From Acidobacteriota bacterium (lineage in GTDB: Bacteria; Acidobacteriota; Vicinamibacteria; Vicinamibacterales; SCN-69-37), in contig JADYYY010000019.1 in the NCBI GenBank assembly GCA_020853395.1, positions 62,001 to 126,000 on the forward strand: DNA of 64,000 nucleotides, in the 5' to 3' direction. Shown here in pieces: positions 1,653 through 58,414 of this stretch. The position numbers and the translations under genes were made by a program. Numbering within the stretch: the stretch's first letter is position 1; each line of letters starts with the position of its first letter. Below the pieces are notes generated by a model. That model saw only the letters and a list, made by a program, of their open reading frames with translations, was not told the DNA's origin and searched no databases.

Positions 1653-3083
1653 ATGATGCTCCCCGCGCGCACGTTCGTGAGCGCCCTGCTGATTGCGGCG
1701 CCTGTGGCCGTGCTCGCCGTCGCCCTGGTCGATCGCGTGCGCGATCGTGACATGCACCTGGCGCTGTCGCGCGTCGTCACCTCGCAGCTCAACGGACAGG
1801 TACGCGAACGCTGCGAGAGCGATCCGAAGTGGTTCCTGACCGGTCCGCTCGAGGGGCGCCCGCCGAACGGGATCTTCATCAGCCCCAATCCCGATGCGCT
1901 CGAGCCGCGGCCGAAGCCCAGCAACCAGGGATTCGACCTGTTCGCGTACGACGAGCAGTTCATCGGATCGAGCTCGGCGGCGCCCAGGTTTCCGAACGAG
2001 TTCCGCCGGGAGCTGCAGCGATCGGCGCTGCCGGTGTTCGGCACCTACGAGACGGACGACGGGGCCGGCATCGCGATGGCCGTGCACACAGGATGGCTGA
2101 ACGGCCCGTGCGCCTACTTCATGGGCCGCATGGCGCCACCTCCCGATGCGATGGCGCAGCGCGTTCGCGTGGCGGCGGGCACGTTCGTCGTCACGCTGCT
2201 CGCCGCGCTGGCCGCGGGCCTCCCGCTGGTGCGGCGAGTACGGCGGCTGGCGGTGCTCGCTCGCGCCTCGGCGGCGAGCGACTACGCGACGGTCGCGCTC
2301 GACGGCCGCAAGGACGAGCTGAACGGCGTGACGTTCGTCTACAACGATGCGGCGACCGAGCTGAAACTGCGGAAGGCGCGCATCGACGATCTCGAGAGCG
2401 GGCTGCGGCGGTTCGTCCGGTCGACCGACGAGGAGATCGCCGAGCCGCTGCGCGCCCTCGAGGCGAAGCTGGCGGGCGGCGCCGACCCGCGGGAGGCATT
2501 GGTGGACTCGCACGCGCTGAGCGCGCGGGTCGAGAACCTGATCGCCGCGGCCCGCCTGCGCATGACCGGCGGCATCGCGGAGCCGGTGCCCATCGATCTG
2601 TCCGCGCTTCTCCGGCGCGTCGTCGTGTCGCACGAGCCGCTCGCCCGCGCCAGCGGCGTCTCGCTTGAGACGGTCATCGAGGCCGCGCCCGTGATGATCG
2701 ACGGCGACGAGCGGCTGATCGCGCGCGCGGTGGCGAACGTGATCGACAACGCGATTCGCTACAACAGGCCGGGCGGTCGCGTGAGGATCGCGATCGTGGC
2801 GGGTGACGGCGGCCGATCGTGGCGGCTGTCGGTGGTGGACAACGGGCCGGGCGTGAGCGACGAGCTGTTCAAAGGCCTGACGGCCGTCCGCCGCTTCCGC
2901 GGCGATGAGGGGCGCAACCGCCGCCCGGGCGCGCCGGGACTCGGGTTGGCCGTCGCGCGCGAGATCGCCGATCGCTTCGGGATGAGCCTCGACCTGAGCC
3001 GCCCGAGCGCGGGCGGGTTCGAGGCGGCGTTCGCGCCGCGTGCGCCAGCAGGCTCGGCGCCGGCCGATTCCGCGCCGGTGTAG
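1653..3083 (+). CDS. Membrane sensor histidine kinase-like protein lacking the phospho-accepting histidine
   Basis: The protein is 476 aa. It has a membrane segment at about residues 8-26, a ~145-residue periplasmic domain, a second membrane segment at about 173-193, a HAMP-like linker, a dimerisation helix region and a C-terminal HATPase_c domain. The ATPase boxes are readable: N box NVIDNAIRYN (362-371), G1 box VVDNGPGV (394-401) and G2 GAPGLGLA (426-433). Where kinases carry HELRTPL, this protein has EEIAEPL, with Glu260 at the histidine position. Autophosphorylation on the usual site is therefore not expected. No response regulator adjoins it. It may work as a pseudokinase or partner subunit, or the phosphosite may be elsewhere. 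Two ATGs (1653, 1656) are equally good starts. Confidence 0.8.
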   Translation: MMLPARTFVSALLIAAPVAVLAVALVDRVRDRDMHLALSRVVTSQLNGQVRERCESDPKWFLTGPLEGRPPNGIFISPNPDALEPRPKPSNQGFDLFAYDEQFIGSSSAAPRFPNEFRRELQRSALPVFGTYETDDGAGIAMAVHTGWLNGPCAYFMGRMAPPPDAMAQRVRVAAGTFVVTLLAALAAGLPLVRRVRRLAVLARASAASDYATVALDGRKDELNGVTFVYNDAATELKLRKARIDDLESGLRRFVRSTDEEIAEPLRALEAKLAGGADPREALVDSHALSARVENLIAAARLRMTGGIAEPVPIDLSALLRRVVVSHEPLARASGVSLETVIEAAPVMIDGDERLIARAVANVIDNAIRYNRPGGRVRIAIVAGDGGRSWRLSVVDNGPGVSDELFKGLTAVRRFRGDEGRNRRPGAPGLGLAVAREIADRFGMSLDLSRPSAGGFEAAFAPRAPAGSAPADSAPV

Positions 3084-3143
3084 CGATCGCCTGACAATCC
3101 CCGCATACGGCCGGTATGATCGGATCGCCTCGAGGTCCGCATC

Positions 3144-4676
3144 ATGTCGATCGCCGTTGCCGCCGCTCCGACCATCCGCCTGCACCCCTCCGACAACGTC
3201 GTGATCGTTCGGGCGAACCTTGCGTCACGGACGCCGGTGGACGCCGAGCGGATCGTGACGTCGGGGCCGGTTCCCGGCGGACACAAAGTCGCGACGCGTG
3301 CGATCCGTCAGAGCGAGCCCGTCTATCGGTACGGGCAGGTCATCGGCGTGGCGACACGCGACATCGCGCCCGGCGATCACGTGCACACGCACAACTGCGG
3401 GATGAGCGAGCTCGCGCGCGACTACGAGTTCTCGGTCGCGACCGTGCCGACCGAGCCGATCCTCCCGCAGGCCACGTTCCAGGGCATCGTGCGCGCCGAC
3501 GGACGGGTCGCCACCCGCAACTACGTGGGCATTCTGTCGTCGGTGAACTGCTCGGCGACGGTCTCGCGGCACATCGCGGACGCGTTCACCCGCGACGGAT
3601 TGCTCGCCGACTATCCGAACGTGGACGGCGTCGTGGCGCTCACGCATCGCACCGGGTGCGGGCAGGCGAGCGAAGGCGAGGGAATGGACGTGCTGCGCCG
3701 CACGTCCGGCGGCTACGCCCGGCATCCGAACTTCTCAGCCACCTTCATCATCGGGCTCGGCTGCGAAGCCAATCAGATCGGGCCGTTGATGGTGACGCAG
3801 GGGCTGAAGATGGCCCGGTCGCTCCAGGCCTTCACGATCCAGGAGATGGGCGGCGCACGCAAGACGATCGAGCGCGGCATCGCGCAGATCAAGGAGCTGC
3901 TCCCGGACGCGAACAGGGTCGTGCGGCAGGCCGTGCCCGCGTCGAACTTGATCCTCGCGCTGCAGTGCGGCGGCTCGGACGGCTTCTCCGGGATCACCGC
4001 GAACCCGGCCCTTGGCGTGGCGTCGGATCTGCTCGTTCGCCACGGCGGTACCGTCGTGCTGTCCGAAACTCCCGAGACGTACGGGGCGGAGCATCTGCTC
4101 ACGCGCCGTGCCGTCAGTCGCGAGGTGGGGGAGAAGCTTCTCGCGCTCTTCGACTGGTGGCGCGACTACACGGCGAGAAACGGCGGCGAGATGGACAACA
4201 ACCCTTCGCCCGGCAACAAGGCGGGCGGCATCACGACCATTCTCGAGAAATCGCTGGGCGCGGCGGCCAAGGCCGGAACGACCAACCTCGTCGACGTGGT
4301 GCGATTCGCGGAACCCATTCGCACGAAGGGATTCGTGTTCATGGACACGCCAGGCTACGACCCGGTGTCGGCCACCGGCCAGGTCGCGGGTGGAGCGAAC
4401 GTGCTCGCGTTCACGACGGGACGCGGCTCGGTCTTCGGGTGCGTGCCGACGCCGTCGATCAAGATCGCGACGAACACGCGGCTCTACCGGCACATGATCG
4501 ACGACATGGATCTCAACTGCGGCGGCATCGCCGACGGCGAGGAGACGGTGGAGCAGGCGGGCCGTCGCATCTTCGAGGCGATCCTGCGCGTCGCGTCGGG
4601 CGAGCGCACGAAGAGCGAGCAGCAGGGCTTCGGCGAGGCCGAGTTCTCGCCGTGGCAGATTGGCGCCGTGATGTAG
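3144..4676 (+). CDS. uxaA: Altronate dehydratase family (UxaA/GarD-type)
   Basis: The protein is 510 aa, close to the ~495-aa E. coli UxaA. The family dehydrates hexuronate-derived aldonates (D-altronate to 2-keto-3-deoxygluconate) using iron. The N terminus has the SAF-like domain with KVATRAIRQSEPVYRYGQVI and the histidine-bearing stretch GDHVHTHNC. The central part has the family's conserved Cys-rich run THRTGCGQ and the motif IGLGCEANQ, and the C-terminal part has GCVPTPSIKIATN. No other uronate pathway gene (uxaB, uxaC, kdgK) is present in the window. The related enzyme galactarate dehydratase is the main alternative, since the sequence does not settle the substrate. Confidence 0.85.
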   Translation: MSIAVAAAPTIRLHPSDNVVIVRANLASRTPVDAERIVTSGPVPGGHKVATRAIRQSEPVYRYGQVIGVATRDIAPGDHVHTHNCGMSELARDYEFSVATVPTEPILPQATFQGIVRADGRVATRNYVGILSSVNCSATVSRHIADAFTRDGLLADYPNVDGVVALTHRTGCGQASEGEGMDVLRRTSGGYARHPNFSATFIIGLGCEANQIGPLMVTQGLKMARSLQAFTIQEMGGARKTIERGIAQIKELLPDANRVVRQAVPASNLILALQCGGSDGFSGITANPALGVASDLLVRHGGTVVLSETPETYGAEHLLTRRAVSREVGEKLLALFDWWRDYTARNGGEMDNNPSPGNKAGGITTILEKSLGAAAKAGTTNLVDVVRFAEPIRTKGFVFMDTPGYDPVSATGQVAGGANVLAFTTGRGSVFGCVPTPSIKIATNTRLYRHMIDDMDLNCGGIADGEETVEQAGRRIFEAILRVASGERTKSEQQGFGEAEFSPWQIGAVM

Positions 4677-51742: not shown

Positions 51743-51765
51743 GCGCGCTGTGCGAACATGGCTCA

Positions 51766-52911
51766 ATGAGCGCGCCGATTCCTCCCTGGGAGCCGTTGTC
51801 CGAACCGCTGCTGGCCGACCAGCGCGGCACCTACGATCGCATGCGTGCGGCCGGCCCGCTCGCCGAGTCGCCGCGCGGCGTCACGCTCTTCAGGCACGCG
51901 GACGTCGTCGCGGCGGCGGCCGATCCGGCGACCTTCTCGTCGGCCGCGTCCGCGCATCGCATGGTGCCGAACTCGCTCGATCCGCCCGAGCACACGGCGT
52001 TTCGCGCGGTCATCGATCCGTTCTTCTCGCCGGAGCGCATGCGCGCGCTCGAGCCGCAGGTTCGCCGTGTCGCGCGCGAGATCGTCGGCGCGCTCCCGCG
52101 CGGCGTCACCGTCGATGCGGTCACGGAGCTCGGCTACCCCTTCGCCGTCGACGCGCAGGCGGCGTGGCTGGGATGGCAGGGCATCGAGGATCGACTGCTC
52201 GCGTGGATGGCCGACAACCATGCGGCCACGCGCTCGAAGGATCACGCGCGCACGGCCGCCGTGGCCGCCGCGTTCGACGACATCGTCCTGGCCCAGATTC
52301 ACCGCCGCCGCGAGCTGGGCGCGGCCGCGCCGCAGGATCCGACGACCGAGCTGCTCGACGTCGTCGTGAACGGCGCGCCGCTGCCGGACGCCGACATCGT
52401 GTCGATCCTGCGCAACTGGACGGCGGGCGACCTCGCCTCGATGGCCGCGGCGCTCGGCGTCGTCGTCCATTTCCTCGCGACGCACGCGGACGTCCAGGCG
52501 CGACTCCGCGCGCGTCCCGGCGACCTGTCGGCGGCGATCGACGAGATGCTGCGGATCGACGATCCCTTCCTCGTCAACCGGCGCGTGACGACGGCGGCGG
52601 CGTGCATCGCCGGATTCGACGTCGCGGCCGGCACGCGGATCTATCTGAACTGGACCTCGGCGAACCGCGACGAGCGCGTGTTCGGCGATCCGGACGCGTA
52701 CCGGCCCGAGGCGCACGCGCCGCACAACCTCGTCTACGGCACCGGCATTCACGCCTGTCCCGGACGTCCGCTCGCGACGATGGAGCTCGTCGTCGCGACG
52801 GAGACGCTGCTCGCCGCCACCACCGGCATCGAGCTGTCGCACGAGGCCGAGCCCGCACGGGAGACGTATCCGCTCGGCGGATGGCGTACCGTGCCGGTGC
52901 GGCTGTCGTAG
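51766..52911 (+). CDS. Cytochrome P450
   Basis: A 381-aa soluble bacterial P450. The haem-binding loop is YGTGIHACPGRPLATMEL with ligand Cys331. The K-helix pair is in DEMLRID (Glu and Arg) and the I-helix reads NWTAGDLASMAAALG, where the usual conserved Thr is Ser. It resembles the CYP class of small bacterial P450s using ferredoxin partners, but no ferredoxin or reductase gene is present. The substrate is unknown. It follows the discoidin gene by 23 bp but is not clearly part of that operon. Confidence 0.88.
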   Translation: MSAPIPPWEPLSEPLLADQRGTYDRMRAAGPLAESPRGVTLFRHADVVAAAADPATFSSAASAHRMVPNSLDPPEHTAFRAVIDPFFSPERMRALEPQVRRVAREIVGALPRGVTVDAVTELGYPFAVDAQAAWLGWQGIEDRLLAWMADNHAATRSKDHARTAAVAAAFDDIVLAQIHRRRELGAAAPQDPTTELLDVVVNGAPLPDADIVSILRNWTAGDLASMAAALGVVVHFLATHADVQARLRARPGDLSAAIDEMLRIDDPFLVNRRVTTAAACIAGFDVAAGTRIYLNWTSANRDERVFGDPDAYRPEAHAPHNLVYGTGIHACPGRPLATMELVVATETLLAATTGIELSHEAEPARETYPLGGWRTVPVRLS

Positions 52912-52961: not shown

Positions 52962-53378
52962 TTACGTGAGCGATCCGAAGATCCCGTGACGGCTCGTGCA
53001 CAGCCGCGGTGCGACGGCGACGGTGACGAGCACCAGGGGCCAGAGCCGGCCGTGGAACACGTCGTAGTCCGCGAAGAGGTCGGGCCACGGCGTGCCGAAC
53101 GCGAAATGGCCGGTGAGCAGCTCGAAGGCCAGCGTCAGCGCGAGCCAGAGAGCGCCGATGATCCAGGCGTCGCGAGGCGACCGTGGGCCGACCCATCGGA
53201 TCGTGAGATAGGTCACGAGCAGCACGACGAGGGAGAGCGCGATGGCGCTGATCGCCCGACCGGCGAACGCGCCGATCGCGGGGATGAGCAGCACTTCCCG
53301 GACTCCGCCGTTCACGAACGCGAGCACCAGCACCGCCAGCCAGACCACGACCGATCGTCCGAGCATCGCGTCCTCCAC
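52962..53378 (-). CDS. Small integral membrane protein
   Basis: A 138-aa hydrophobic protein with four predicted membrane helices: VVVWLAVLVLAFVNGG, ISAIALSLVVLLVTYLTI, WIIGALWLALTLAFELL and LWPLVLVTVAVAP. A polar loop HFAFGTPWPDLFADYDV lies between helices three and four. I do not recognise the family. It is convergent with the P450 and divergent from the hybrid kinase. An inner ATG at 53366 would shorten it by four residues. Confidence 0.6.
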   Translation of the reverse strand: MEDAMLGRSVVVWLAVLVLAFVNGGVREVLLIPAIGAFAGRAISAIALSLVVLLVTYLTIRWVGPRSPRDAWIIGALWLALTLAFELLTGHFAFGTPWPDLFADYDVFHGRLWPLVLVTVAVAPRLCTSRHGIFGSLT

Positions 53379-53463
53379 CGAACATACTGGCGCGCCGACC
53401 GCGGCGAAGTCACCTGGTCAGATGCAACGCCGGCAGCGGGCCGGATCCCATGGAGCGTTCTGT

Positions 53464-56232
53464 ATGATAGGCCGTTCACCCGTGAACGAGCCGATTGCTG
53501 CTGCCTCGTCTGCATCGCCTGTCGCTCCGGCGGAGACGGAGCGGACGTACTCGTACCTCTTCGACGTCAGCCCGTTCCCCGCCGTCGTGAGCCGGCTCGC
53601 CGACCACACGGTGCTCGCGGTGAACGCGCGGACGTCCGAGGTGATCGGCGTGCCGCAGGCCGAGGCGATCGGCGCGTCGGTCAGCGACTACTACGTGGAT
53701 CCGGCGCAGCGGATCCAGCTCGCCGAGCAGCTCCGTCGCGACGGCCGGGCCGATTCGCTTCGCCTGCACATCAAGCGGCACAGCGGCGAGCCGTTCTGGG
53801 CGATGTGCTCGTCGCGGCTCATCACTTGGCGGGGCGAGCCGGCCGCGCTGACCGTCTTCCACGACATCACCGCGCAGGTCGAGGCCGAGGTGGCGCTCAA
53901 GGCCAACGAGCACCGGCTGACGGCGCAGAGCGACGCGCTCACGACGCTGACGGCGCGCTACACGGGCAGCGATCGGTTCGACGAACGCCTGCGCAGCATC
54001 CTCGAGATCGCGTCGGAGGCGCTGCAGGTGGAGCGGCTGAGCATGTGGCGCTTCGACGAGACGCGCGGCACCATCCGGTGCCTGGGCCTGTACCGGCGGT
54101 CCGAGAAAGGGTACGACCAGGGGGCCGTGCTGCAGCGCGAGAACGCGCCGGCGTACTTCGACGCGCTCGACGGCGAGCGCGTGATCGCCGCCGCCGACGC
54201 GCGGACCGATCCGCGCACGGCGGAGTTCCTGCGCGGCTATCTCGATCCCAACCGGATCGGGGCGATGCTCGACGTGCCGCTGCGGCACGACAACCGGACG
54301 GTCGGAGTGCTGTGCGCCGAGCACGTCGGCGGGGCGAGGGCCTGGCCGGTCGACGAGCAGAACTTCGCGATCGCGGTGGCCAACCTGGTGGCGGCGGCCG
54401 GCGCCGAGGAGGATCGGCGGCGCGCGCTGGCGCGGCTGGCCGACAGCGAGACGCGCGCGCGGCTCGTCATCAACACCGCGCACGACGCGTTCATCGGCAT
54501 CGACTCGGCCGGCGTCATCGCCGAGTGGAACGCGCAGGCCGAGCGCACGTTCGGGTGGACGCGCGACGAGGCCGTCGGCCGCAACCTGGCCGAGACGATC
54601 ATTCCGCCCGCCTACCGCGACGCGCACACGAGCGGCATGCGCCGGTTCCACGAGACCGGCGACGCGCCCGTCGTCAACCAGCGCGTCGAGCTGTCGGCCA
54701 TCCACCGCACGGGCCGCGAGTTCCCCGTCGAGCTGATGATCACGTCGCCGATGAAAGTGGATCGCGGCTACTTCTTCGGCGCGTTCCTCCGCGACATCTC
54801 GGATCGCCGCGAGCGCGACGCGGAGCTGCGGCGCGCCAAGGAGTCGGCCGAGGCCGCGACGCGCGCCAAGAGCGAGTTCCTCGCGAACATGAGCCACGAG
54901 CTGCGGACGCCGCTCAACGGCGTGATCGGGTACGCGCAACTGCTGCAGCGTGATCGCGCGCTCGGCGGAAGCCAGCGCGACGCGCTCGACGCGATCGCGA
55001 AGTGCGGATCGCAGTTGCTCGACCTGATCAACGACGTGCTGGACCTCTCGAAGATCGAAGCGGGCCGGCTCGACATCGAGGAGGCGCCCACCGATCTCGC
55101 CGGTCTCGTCGCCGATCTCCGGGCCGTCGTCGCCGAGGCGGCCGAGCGCAAGGGCCTCCGGCTGACGATGACGGTCGACGCCGGCGTGCCGGCGGTCGTG
55201 GTGCTCGACGGCCGTCACCTGCGGCAGGCGCTCCTCAACCTGCTCGGCAACGCGGTCAAGTTCACGTCCTCGGGCGACGTGCGGCTGGGCATCGCGTGCG
55301 CGGACGACCGGCTGCGGTTCGAGGTCGTCGACACCGGCGTCGGCATCGAGCCGGACGCGCTCACGGCGATCTTCGCGGCCTTCGCGCAGACGAAGACCGG
55401 CGCGGCGGCGGGCGGCACGGGCCTGGGGCTGGCGATCTCCGATCACCTGATCCGGCGGATGGGCGGCGCGCTCGCCGTCGAGAGCACGCTCGGCACGGGC
55501 AGCCGCTTCTGGTTCACGCTGCCGCTGACGCAGGACCGCGAGAACGTGCGGCCGCGGCCGGCCGACCCGGCCGGCGCGATCGCGCCGCTCGACGCGCGGC
55601 TCGCGCCCGGCCAGCGCGTCACGGCGCTCGTCGTGGACGACAGCACGGCCAACCGCCGGATCCTCGCGAGCCTGCTCGAGAGCGCGGGCGTGCAGGTGCT
55701 CACGGCAGCCGGCGGCCGGGAGGCGCTCGCGATCGCGCGCAAGGAGCTGCCCGACATCGTCTTCATGGACCTGAAGATGGAGGACCTCGACGGGCTGGAG
55801 GCGACCCGCCAGCTCGCGCGGGACCCGGCGACGGCCGCGATCCCGGTGATCGCCGTGACGGCGAGCGCCATCGGCAACGTGCGACAGGCGGCGCGCGACG
55901 CCGGCTGCATCGACTACCTGTCGAAGCCGATCCGCGCGCCGTTGCTCTTCGGGATGCTGCAGACGCATTTGGGCGTGCGCTGGATCAGCGGCAGCGATCG
56001 ACCGGTGATCCCGGCGTCGGGCGGCACCGGCGAGATCGCCCGCGGCGCGGAGATCGCCGCCAGGCTCCGGAGTGCGATCGCGCTCGGCGACGTCGGCGGC
56101 ATCCAGGCGCTCGCCCGCGAGCTGACGAGCGGCACGATGGCCGAGGCCCGCCTGGGCGAGCGCATCGGCCGCCTCGCCGGCGAGTTCGACTTCAGCGGCC
56201 TCGGCGCGCTCGCCGACTCGCTGGCACCATGA
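53464..56232 (+). CDS. Hybrid sensor histidine kinase (PAS-GAF-PAS-HisKA-HATPase-receiver)
   Basis: A 922-aa cytoplasmic sensor kinase. Domains: PAS (about 29-140), GAF (165-315), PAS (328-450, with DAFIGIDSAGVIAEWNAQAE), HisKA with intact His478 in NMSHELRTPLNGVIGYAQLL, HATPase (LGNAVKFTSSGDV; VVDTGVGIEP; GGTGLGLAISDHL) and a C-terminal receiver with Asp769 in DIVFMDLKMEDLDG and Lys821. A short C-terminal tail resembles a shortened histidine phosphotransfer helix region. The next gene, 52 bp on, encodes a receiver-pseudoAAA-kinase fusion, its likely phosphorelay target. ATG 53464 is chosen; an in-frame GTG at 53482 is possible. Confidence 0.88.
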   Translation: MIGRSPVNEPIAAASSASPVAPAETERTYSYLFDVSPFPAVVSRLADHTVLAVNARTSEVIGVPQAEAIGASVSDYYVDPAQRIQLAEQLRRDGRADSLRLHIKRHSGEPFWAMCSSRLITWRGEPAALTVFHDITAQVEAEVALKANEHRLTAQSDALTTLTARYTGSDRFDERLRSILEIASEALQVERLSMWRFDETRGTIRCLGLYRRSEKGYDQGAVLQRENAPAYFDALDGERVIAAADARTDPRTAEFLRGYLDPNRIGAMLDVPLRHDNRTVGVLCAEHVGGARAWPVDEQNFAIAVANLVAAAGAEEDRRRALARLADSETRARLVINTAHDAFIGIDSAGVIAEWNAQAERTFGWTRDEAVGRNLAETIIPPAYRDAHTSGMRRFHETGDAPVVNQRVELSAIHRTGREFPVELMITSPMKVDRGYFFGAFLRDISDRRERDAELRRAKESAEAATRAKSEFLANMSHELRTPLNGVIGYAQLLQRDRALGGSQRDALDAIAKCGSQLLDLINDVLDLSKIEAGRLDIEEAPTDLAGLVADLRAVVAEAAERKGLRLTMTVDAGVPAVVVLDGRHLRQALLNLLGNAVKFTSSGDVRLGIACADDRLRFEVVDTGVGIEPDALTAIFAAFAQTKTGAAAGGTGLGLAISDHLIRRMGGALAVESTLGTGSRFWFTLPLTQDRENVRPRPADPAGAIAPLDARLAPGQRVTALVVDDSTANRRILASLLESAGVQVLTAAGGREALAIARKELPDIVFMDLKMEDLDGLEATRQLARDPATAAIPVIAVTASAIGNVRQAARDAGCIDYLSKPIRAPLLFGMLQTHLGVRWISGSDRPVIPASGGTGEIARGAEIAARLRSAIALGDVGGIQALARELTSGTMAEARLGERIGRLAGEFDFSGLGALADSLAP

Positions 56233-56284: not shown

Positions 56285-58414
56285 GTGACGACGCCCGCGA
56301 CACCGCCAGGCCCGCAGATCCTGCTGGTGGACGACAACGCCACCAACCTGCAGGTGCTCTACCAGACGCTCGACGGGAGAGGGTATCGGCTGCTCGCCGC
56401 GCGCAGCGGCAAGGATGCGATCGCGATCGCCGGCCGTGCGCGTGCCGATCTGATCCTCCTCGACGTCATGATGCCGGAGATGGACGGCTTCGAGACGTGC
56501 CGGCGTCTCAAGGCCGGCGACGCCACACGCGAGGCCGCGATCATCTTTCTGTCGGCCGTGACCGAGGCGAGCGAGAAGGTCCGCGGCCTGGAGCTCGGCG
56601 CCGTCGATTTCATCAACAAGCCGTTCCAGGCCGAGGAAGTGCTCGCGCGCGTCAGGACGCACCTGACGATTCGCGATCTCCAGCAGCAGCTCCGCCGGCG
56701 CAACGAGCAGCTCGAGCACGAGCTGACCGTCGCGCAGGAGCTGCTGCGCGAGGCGCGCGACCGCAGCGACGGCGTGCTGCTCGGCGACAGCGAAGCGGCC
56801 GTGCGGCTGCGCCGCGACATCGAGGCGGTCGCGGCCTCCGACGACGCGCTGCTCATCAGCGGGCCGCCGGGCAGCGACCACGAGGCCGTCGCGCGCGTCG
56901 TGCACCATCAGTCGCGCCGCGGCGGGCGCGCCATCATCTGCCTCAACGGCCTGTCGGTCGCGTCGCACGCATCGCCGTCGCTCGCCGAGACCGGCGTCGA
57001 CGTGAGCGTCTTCGACAAGCTGCGCCTGGCCGACGGCGGCACGCTCTACCTCGAGGGCATCCAGCACCTGCCGCACGAGGCGCAGCGCCTGCTCGCCGAG
57101 CACATCCGGACGATGGACGAGGCGCGACGCCAGGGCCGCACGCCGGATCCCGACGTTCGCGTGATCGCGTCGACGACGCGGAGCGTGGACGACGAGCTGG
57201 ACGCCGGGCGCCTCTCGCCCGAGCTGCACCGCGCGCTGCCGGCGACGCTGGATCTCGCGCCGCTGCGCGCGCGGCTCGACGATCTGCCGGCGCTCGCCGG
57301 CCACATCCTCCGGCGCCAGGCCGACCAGGCCGGCCGGACCGTGCCGATCATCTCCGGCGAATCGATGCAGCGGCTGAAGCGCTACCGCTGGCCGGGCAAC
57401 CTGCGCGAGCTGCGCAACGTGCTGGGCGCGGCGCTCGCTGCGAGCCAGGGGCCGACCCTCGACATCGGCGAGCACCTGCTCGACAACGGCATCCGCGTCG
57501 GCAGCTACACGCTGATCGAGAAGCTCGGATCGGGCGGGATGGGCGAAGTGTGGCTGGCGCGGCATCGGCTGCTCGCGCGTCCGGCGGCCGTCAAGCTCGT
57601 CCGCGATTCGGTCATCGCGCTCGACGAGGACGGCCAGGGCGTGCGCCAGCGCTTCGCCCGCGAGGCGCACGCGACCGCCGAGCTGCAATCGCCGCACACC
57701 GTGCAGCTCTTCGACTTCGGCATGACCGACACCGGCAGCTTCTACTACGTGATGGAGCGGCTCCGCGGCCTCGACCTCCAGCGGTTGATCGAGCGCTACG
57801 GTCCGATGCCCGAGGAGCGCGCCGTCGCGCTGCTGAAGCAGGCGTGCCTGTCGCTCGCCGAGGCGCACGGCCTGGGCCTCGTGCATCGCGACGTCAAGCC
57901 GGCCAACCTCTTCGTCTGCCGATTGGGCCGGGAGTACGATTTCCTCAAAGTGCTCGACTTCGGCGTGGTCTCACGGCACGGCCGGCGATCGGCGGAGCCG
58001 ATGACCGTCTCGGGCCTGATCCTCGGGACGCCGGCGTTCCTGGCGCCGGAGCTCGTGTCCGGGCGCGACGGCTTCGACGGCCGCGCGGACATCTACGCGC
58101 TCGGCTGCGTCGCGTGCTGGTTGCTCACCGGGCATCCGCCGTTCGAAGCGCCCGACGCGATGGCGCTCCTGATGCACCACGCGAGGACGACGCCCGGGCC
58201 GCCGTCGAGCCGGCGGCCCGGTGCGGTCTCGCCGGAGATGGACGCGCTCGTGCTCGACTGTCTCGCGAAGGATCCCGCCAAGCGGCCTGCCACGGCCGAG
58301 GTCCTCTGGGAGCGCCTCGATCGGCTGTCGGCCGGTACGCCATGGGATCAGCGCCGCGCGCGCGAGTGGTGGGAGCAGCACGAAGCCGGCCTCGTGGGCC
58401 GCGCGGGCGCCTGA
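56285..58414 (+). CDS. Receiver - degenerate sigma-54 AAA+ - Ser/Thr protein kinase fusion
   Basis: A 709-aa protein with three parts. Residues 11-125 are a response-regulator receiver (Asp16-Asp17, phospho-acceptor Asp60 in LLDVMMPEMDG, Lys112). Residues ~160-385 read as a sigma-54 activator AAA+ domain that has lost its key motifs: Walker A is GPPGSDHE instead of GxxGxGKE, Walker B is GGTLYLEGIQ instead of GGTLFLDEI, and GAFTGA is absent, while the downstream WPGNLREL is kept. Residues ~407-680 are a Hanks-type kinase with GSGGMGEVW, Lys437, HRDVKPAN (Asp536), DFG (558-560) and the activation-loop APE. The kinase looks active. Aspartate phosphorylation by the upstream hybrid kinase may gate Ser/Thr phosphorylation (inference). 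Confidence 0.88.
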   Translation: MTTPATPPGPQILLVDDNATNLQVLYQTLDGRGYRLLAARSGKDAIAIAGRARADLILLDVMMPEMDGFETCRRLKAGDATREAAIIFLSAVTEASEKVRGLELGAVDFINKPFQAEEVLARVRTHLTIRDLQQQLRRRNEQLEHELTVAQELLREARDRSDGVLLGDSEAAVRLRRDIEAVAASDDALLISGPPGSDHEAVARVVHHQSRRGGRAIICLNGLSVASHASPSLAETGVDVSVFDKLRLADGGTLYLEGIQHLPHEAQRLLAEHIRTMDEARRQGRTPDPDVRVIASTTRSVDDELDAGRLSPELHRALPATLDLAPLRARLDDLPALAGHILRRQADQAGRTVPIISGESMQRLKRYRWPGNLRELRNVLGAALAASQGPTLDIGEHLLDNGIRVGSYTLIEKLGSGGMGEVWLARHRLLARPAAVKLVRDSVIALDEDGQGVRQRFAREAHATAELQSPHTVQLFDFGMTDTGSFYYVMERLRGLDLQRLIERYGPMPEERAVALLKQACLSLAEAHGLGLVHRDVKPANLFVCRLGREYDFLKVLDFGVVSRHGRRSAEPMTVSGLILGTPAFLAPELVSGRDGFDGRADIYALGCVACWLLTGHPPFEAPDAMALLMHHARTTPGPPSSRRPGAVSPEMDALVLDCLAKDPAKRPATAEVLWERLDRLSAGTPWDQRRAREWWEQHEAGLVGRAGA

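Follow-up and report, generated by a model that had tools for sequence, protein, structure and literature searches.

The window, a 64,000-nucleotide stretch of an Acidobacteriota genome, contains on its forward strand at 56285-58414 a single unbroken 709-codon frame with a GTG start, encoding a 709-amino acid protein in which a receiver, a linker helix, an apparently dead AAA+ domain and a Ser/Thr kinase follow one another. Pfam identifies Response_reg at residues 12-124 (2.4e-27), Sigma54_activat at 166-318 (2.8e-14, above the cut-off), AAA_lid_14 at 328-394 (1e-16) and Pkinase at 408-674 (1.3e-42), which bears out the first-pass annotation of this DNA, where a two-component receiver and a Hanks-type kinase were said to be joined by a sigma-54 activator module. 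NCBIfam models of the NtrX/AtoC/NtrC type (residues 11-391) and of the PknB type (from residue 407) match far below their true-member cut-offs. Neither Pfam nor NCBIfam gave an HTH family match in the protein, and the C-terminal place (residues 405-699) is taken by the kinase.

The receiver (residues 10-127, nt 56312-56665) has an intact pocket comprising D16/D17, D60 (nt 56462-56464), S90 and K112. In the AlphaFold2 models its alpha-5 continues into the linker as one helix spanning residues 116-163 (56630-56773), which is followed by a degenerate NtrC-type AAA+ core and lid at residues 164-394 (56774-57466), recognized by Pfam, alignment, AlphaFold2 and structure comparison. The Hanks-type Ser/Thr kinase (57497-58381) retains the glycine loop, K437, the alpha-C Glu, HRD (D536), DFG (D558) and APE, and carries a C-terminal WWEQH tail. 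These catalytic motifs are all common to the PknB/Stk1-type Hanks kinases, and the best PDB match is PknB (1mru, 4.8e-49), but the 709-residue protein has no PASTA match and scores 232 bits with the NCBIfam PknB model, for which the cut-off is 450. A scan for promoters and terminators found nothing.

A gap of 52 nt separates the start of this gene from the stop codon of a hybrid histidine kinase gene on the same strand (53242-56232), with the domain order PAS-GAF-PAS-HisKA(H552)-HATPase-REC(D843) according to Pfam and motifs. About 74 extra N-terminal codons of the histidine kinase frame (53242-53463) lie opposite a minus-strand frame (52962-53378), and the true start may be the ATG at 53464, since the homologous gene in genome G129 begins near there. 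The closest homologue of the 709-residue protein, in G129, likewise follows a histidine kinase gene directly, with overlapping stop and start codons; the two histidine kinases are 69% identical, and the receiver-type protein is thus paired with an adjacent hybrid histidine kinase in two genera. Judged from the sequences, a two-component input to the 709-residue protein is well supported, because the receiver is intact and the kinase partner is conserved. The G129 pair is adjoined by a membrane protein that reads like a TerC-family transporter (L118:4537-5556) and that is not found beside the window pair. Further upstream in the window, the frame at 51750-52911 contains a heme motif resembling that of cytochromes P450 (GTGIHACPGRPLA).

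Residues and predicted fold of the AAA+ domain

The AAA+ residues were read against those of 13 canonical activators. At the Walker A position (56861-56884), which begins at G193, the canonical GExGxGKE is replaced by GPPGSDHE, placing His199 where the Lys should be and Asp198 where the preceding Gly should be. The Walker B position, residues 251-259 (57035-57061), reads GGTLYLEGI for the canonical GGTLFLDEI, with Glu257 in place of the Asp and Gly258 in place of the catalytic Glu. The GAFTGA loop is deleted or replaced around residues 230-238, and neither arginine finger remains (S311 and A317, within LSPELHRAL at 57212-57238; canonical FREDLYYRL). The sensor-I Asn has become Thr298; the sensor-II Arg374 is retained. 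From these residues the ATPase looks dead. The first-pass annotation had reported the loss of the Walker A lysine, the Walker B acidic residues and GAFTGA; it was correct for the first and the last, and half correct for Walker B, where the catalytic Glu is lost but an acidic residue, Glu257, still occupies the Asp position.

The AlphaFold2 model of residues 130-408, built from 43 aligned sequences, has a pLDDT of 90.6 and a pTM of 0.84. Foldseek returned NtrC1, NtrX and DmpR as its best matches, and VIA-align of the model with NtrC1 (1ny5) gave a Z of 23.5, with the linker helix inside the match; NtrC1, PspF and FleQ all match at a Z of about 23, although the alignment behind the model contained AAA+ homologues and the fold match is not fully independent of the sequence match. 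The middle region is thus predicted to have the sigma-54-activator AAA+ fold, and the likeness to AAA+ on which the first-pass annotation relied is upheld by structure prediction. In the full-length model the last helix of the receiver runs unbroken to residue 163; that model was built with too few kinase homologues, and its pLDDT below 50 at residues 402-649 makes kinase docking unreadable.

Most bEBPs have a C-terminal DNA-binding HTH. In NtrC-family bEBPs (NtrC1 1ny5, NtrX 5m7n and ZraR 1ojl), the receiver, linker helix and AAA+ core with lid have the same order and fold as in the 709-residue protein, which differs in lacking GAFTGA, the ATPase residues and the HTH, and in having a C-terminal kinase instead. 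The proposal that the scaffold once drove transcription fits the AAA+ fold, the loss of GAFTGA and ATPase residues in the relatives described below and the replacement of the HTH by a kinase. The AAA+ part might also regulate transcription still, at sigma-70 promoters. NtrC-type AAA+ domains minus the sigma-54 loop, as found here, are already known from VpsR and from the NtrC proteins of Caulobacter and Rhodobacter, which act at sigma-70 promoters (PMC10274813). In the 709-residue protein, however, the kinase sits where those proteins have their DNA-binding domain, and there is no HTH family match, making such a role very improbable.

Distribution and evolution of helix-AAA-kinase proteins

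Profile searches with the helix-AAA-kinase module (313 positions) detected 13 such proteins in 12 genomes, the window protein included, in the window's phylum and in Myxococcota. Fusions inside the window's phylum had an E of 1e-105 or better, with matches running through the kinase start, whereas the best ordinary activator reached 3e-60 with a match that ends before it. Only 4 of 193 genomes of the window's class carry the module, in five proteins (the window protein, two from G129, and those of G127 and G083), and other classes of the phylum contribute three more (G389, G275 and G494). Five were found in 284 genomes from the phylum of a Myxococcales MAG (G546), at E values from 2e-69 to 1e-84; none reached that threshold in 249 genomes of Gemmatimonadota, the phylum of a Gemmatimonadales MAG, a set without a positive control. 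A scan of genome contigs gave kinase-only and receiver or receiver-AAA relatives and no fusion, and family members were absent from plasmids and viral contigs in both searches.

The closest homologue, the receiver-type protein of G129, is 70% identical and colinear as far as its contig edge at about residue 552, and the G830 protein aligns end to end with 44% identity over 705 residues. These colinear proteins in other genomes rule out an artefact or misassembly of the gene, and the 12 further proteins rule out its being unique to the window genome. The helix-AAA-kinase proteins are a real kinase family, rather than a freak, and apparently an undescribed one. We found no paper in the open-access literature that describes a Ser/Thr kinase fused to a degenerate AAA+ and headed by a receiver or GAF domain, and no well-studied protein of this layout; the novelty of the architecture is provisional, because the search was limited mainly to open-access papers.

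The input domains of the 13 proteins are a receiver in three, GAF or GAF-like in seven, membrane-type in two and none in one. A search for the same domain order, as the first-pass annotation had advised, recovers the receiver form in G129 and G830; what that annotation had missed is that the receiver is one of several interchangeable inputs. Pfam identifies GAF in the second G129 protein and in G127, G083, G802, G554 and G671, and the N terminus of G494, where Pfam names no domain, was read as GAF-like. G275 has a Cache-HAMP membrane-type input, the N terminus of G699 was judged by eye to be hydrophobic and multi-TM, and G389 has almost no input region.

None of the 13 proteins has GAFTGA or the Walker B Asp-Glu pair. 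The Walker A Lys is lost in eight, where its place is taken by His (five proteins), Gln, Ala or Ser (one protein each); the five that keep it are GAF types, whose Walker B reads DA, QD or LD. Since some relatives keep this Lys, the loss of the ATPase appears from the residues to be graded across the family. Walker B Asp-Ala is the classic ATP-trap substitution; three GAF-type genes carry it naturally together with a perfect Walker A (L119:5692-8193, L120:847-3258 and L121:5595-8054). The kinase Lys, HRD and DFG are kept across the family, except that DFG and APE of the receiver-type G129 protein lie beyond its contig end.

Binding of c-di-GMP has been reported for the AAA+ domains of FleQ and VpsR. 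Both are among the top structural matches of the 130-408 model, c-di-GMP-bound forms included, and the five members in which the Walker A Lys persists beside a defective Walker B would be expected to bind ATP and not to hydrolyse it. The AAA+ region could on these grounds be a ligand sensor that binds a nucleotide such as c-di-GMP as a second input to the kinase. We consider this unlikely for the window protein, as its Walker A reads GPPGSDHE and the P-loop letters vary freely in the family.

In a phylogenetic tree of AAA+ domains, the 13 family members fall on one side of a branch with an SH-aLRT of 100, opposite 56 ordinary activators; the canonical rows of this tree were picked for an intact Walker A, and it is silent on how often Walker motifs are lost elsewhere. 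In the kinase tree the fused kinases are not monophyletic, though they may still share a single origin. In the combined tree the three receiver types group with 67/72 support. Acquisition of the receiver on two separate occasions is neither demonstrated nor rejected by this grouping, and we no longer favour it.

The closest stand-alone kinase domains, at about 45-58% identity and with the same WWxxH tail, belong to multi-TM Ser/Thr kinases of the window's phylum and beyond (L010, L011, L012 and L094-L117), which have a hydrophobic, apparently membrane-spanning N terminus where the 709-residue protein has its receiver and AAA+. Kinases of this kind, with a C-terminal WTxxRAxxWW..H tail, are a large family across the phylum, and sequence comparison makes them the likely donor of the fused kinase.

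Between the window protein and its G129 homologue, identity is 83% in the receiver, 78% in the helix, 59% in the AAA+ region and 77% in the N part of the kinase, with dN/dS of 0.12, 0.15, 0.28 and 0.14, respectively, values that are approximate since dS is near 1. Purifying selection acts on the AAA+ region too, though less tightly than on the other parts, and this region evolves about twice as fast as the neighbouring domains. A pseudogene is ruled out by these ratios. The lost active-site residues and the lowest identity in the AAA+ region would suit a chance fusion of recent date whose middle part has no function and is decaying, yet a dN/dS of about 0.28 there, and a module common to 13 proteins whose AAA+ domains group together, render such an origin extremely improbable.

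A proposed path from the histidine kinase to the Ser/Thr kinase

We propose, at slightly better than even confidence, that the 709-residue protein acts as the response regulator of a two-component system and passes the signal on by phosphorylating Ser/Thr residues. Its receiver would be phosphorylated at Asp60 by the hybrid histidine kinase encoded just upstream, which has PAS, GAF and PAS sensors, and this would alter the 116-163 helix and thereby the packing of the AAA+ cores. Lacking the residues for ATP hydrolysis, for sigma-54 contact and, in this subtype, for ATP binding, the AAA+ core would serve as a conformational and oligomerising adapter whose assembly sets the C-terminal kinase domains side by side for mutual activation in trans, and the activated kinases would then phosphorylate cytosolic targets. 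Dimerisation is a common way of switching on bacterial Hanks kinases, and in bEBPs the regulatory domains control whether the AAA+ part forms hexamers, either favouring or preventing it. From these two precedents, the second taken from PMC7175178, the simplest mechanism would be a phosphorylation-dependent re-packing of a dead AAA+ oligomer by which the kinase domains are drawn together.

The conversion of Asp phosphorylation into Ser/Thr phosphorylation, already suggested by the first-pass annotation, fits the intact receiver and kinase and the hybrid histidine kinase conserved upstream in two genera. The occurrence of interchangeable sensors on a conserved helix-AAA-kinase module argues for the proposed path; against it count the faster evolution of the AAA+ region and the short contig of G830, the third receiver-type member, where no histidine kinase gene is present. 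Control could also be inhibitory, or could run from the kinase to the receiver. The kinase might instead phosphorylate the receiver or AAA+ region of its own chain and tune the two-component system rather than carry its output, as would suit parts that share one chain and have no obvious substrate gene nearby. The chain has no other output domain, however, with neither HTH nor GAFTGA, and ten relatives have this kinase module but no receiver, so we regard a self-directed kinase as quite unlikely. The output is most simply taken to be the Ser/Thr kinase, since no other part of the chain seems capable of an output.

The transmitter role in histidine kinases belongs to the DHp helices. More tentatively, and at appreciably less than even confidence, a dead bEBP AAA+ core may be a general transmitter that couples interchangeable sensors to a Ser/Thr kinase, the receiver form turning His-Asp into Ser/Thr signals directly, and the family may represent a distinct sensor-kinase class. 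With the 709-residue protein, a connection between His-Asp and Ser/Thr signalling, the two main phosphosignalling systems of bacteria, can be put to the test within a single chain. The family as a whole provides a natural series of a motor ATPase taken over as a seemingly passive signalling adapter, spanning an intact Walker A with a broken Walker B, and both broken, with which one can ask which properties of the bEBP ring, such as assembly and coupling to the regulatory domain, outlive the loss of ATP hydrolysis. A two-component-type sensor input is also rerouted to a Ser/Thr kinase in rice CHARK, a CHASE-domain receptor Ser/Thr kinase (PMC7814049); this eukaryotic protein differs in having neither a receiver nor AAA+.

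In other family members the adapter would take its input not from a receiver but from GAF, from Cache-HAMP or another membrane input, or from a FIST sensor on a protein of its own. The gene of the nearly input-less member (G389) is overlapped by the preceding FIST-domain gene: on the minus strand of L180, the FIST-domain sensor gene (2111-3292) overlaps the start of the sensor-less AAA-kinase gene (180-2138). This arrangement suggests that the two genes may encode a split, two-protein version of the pathway.
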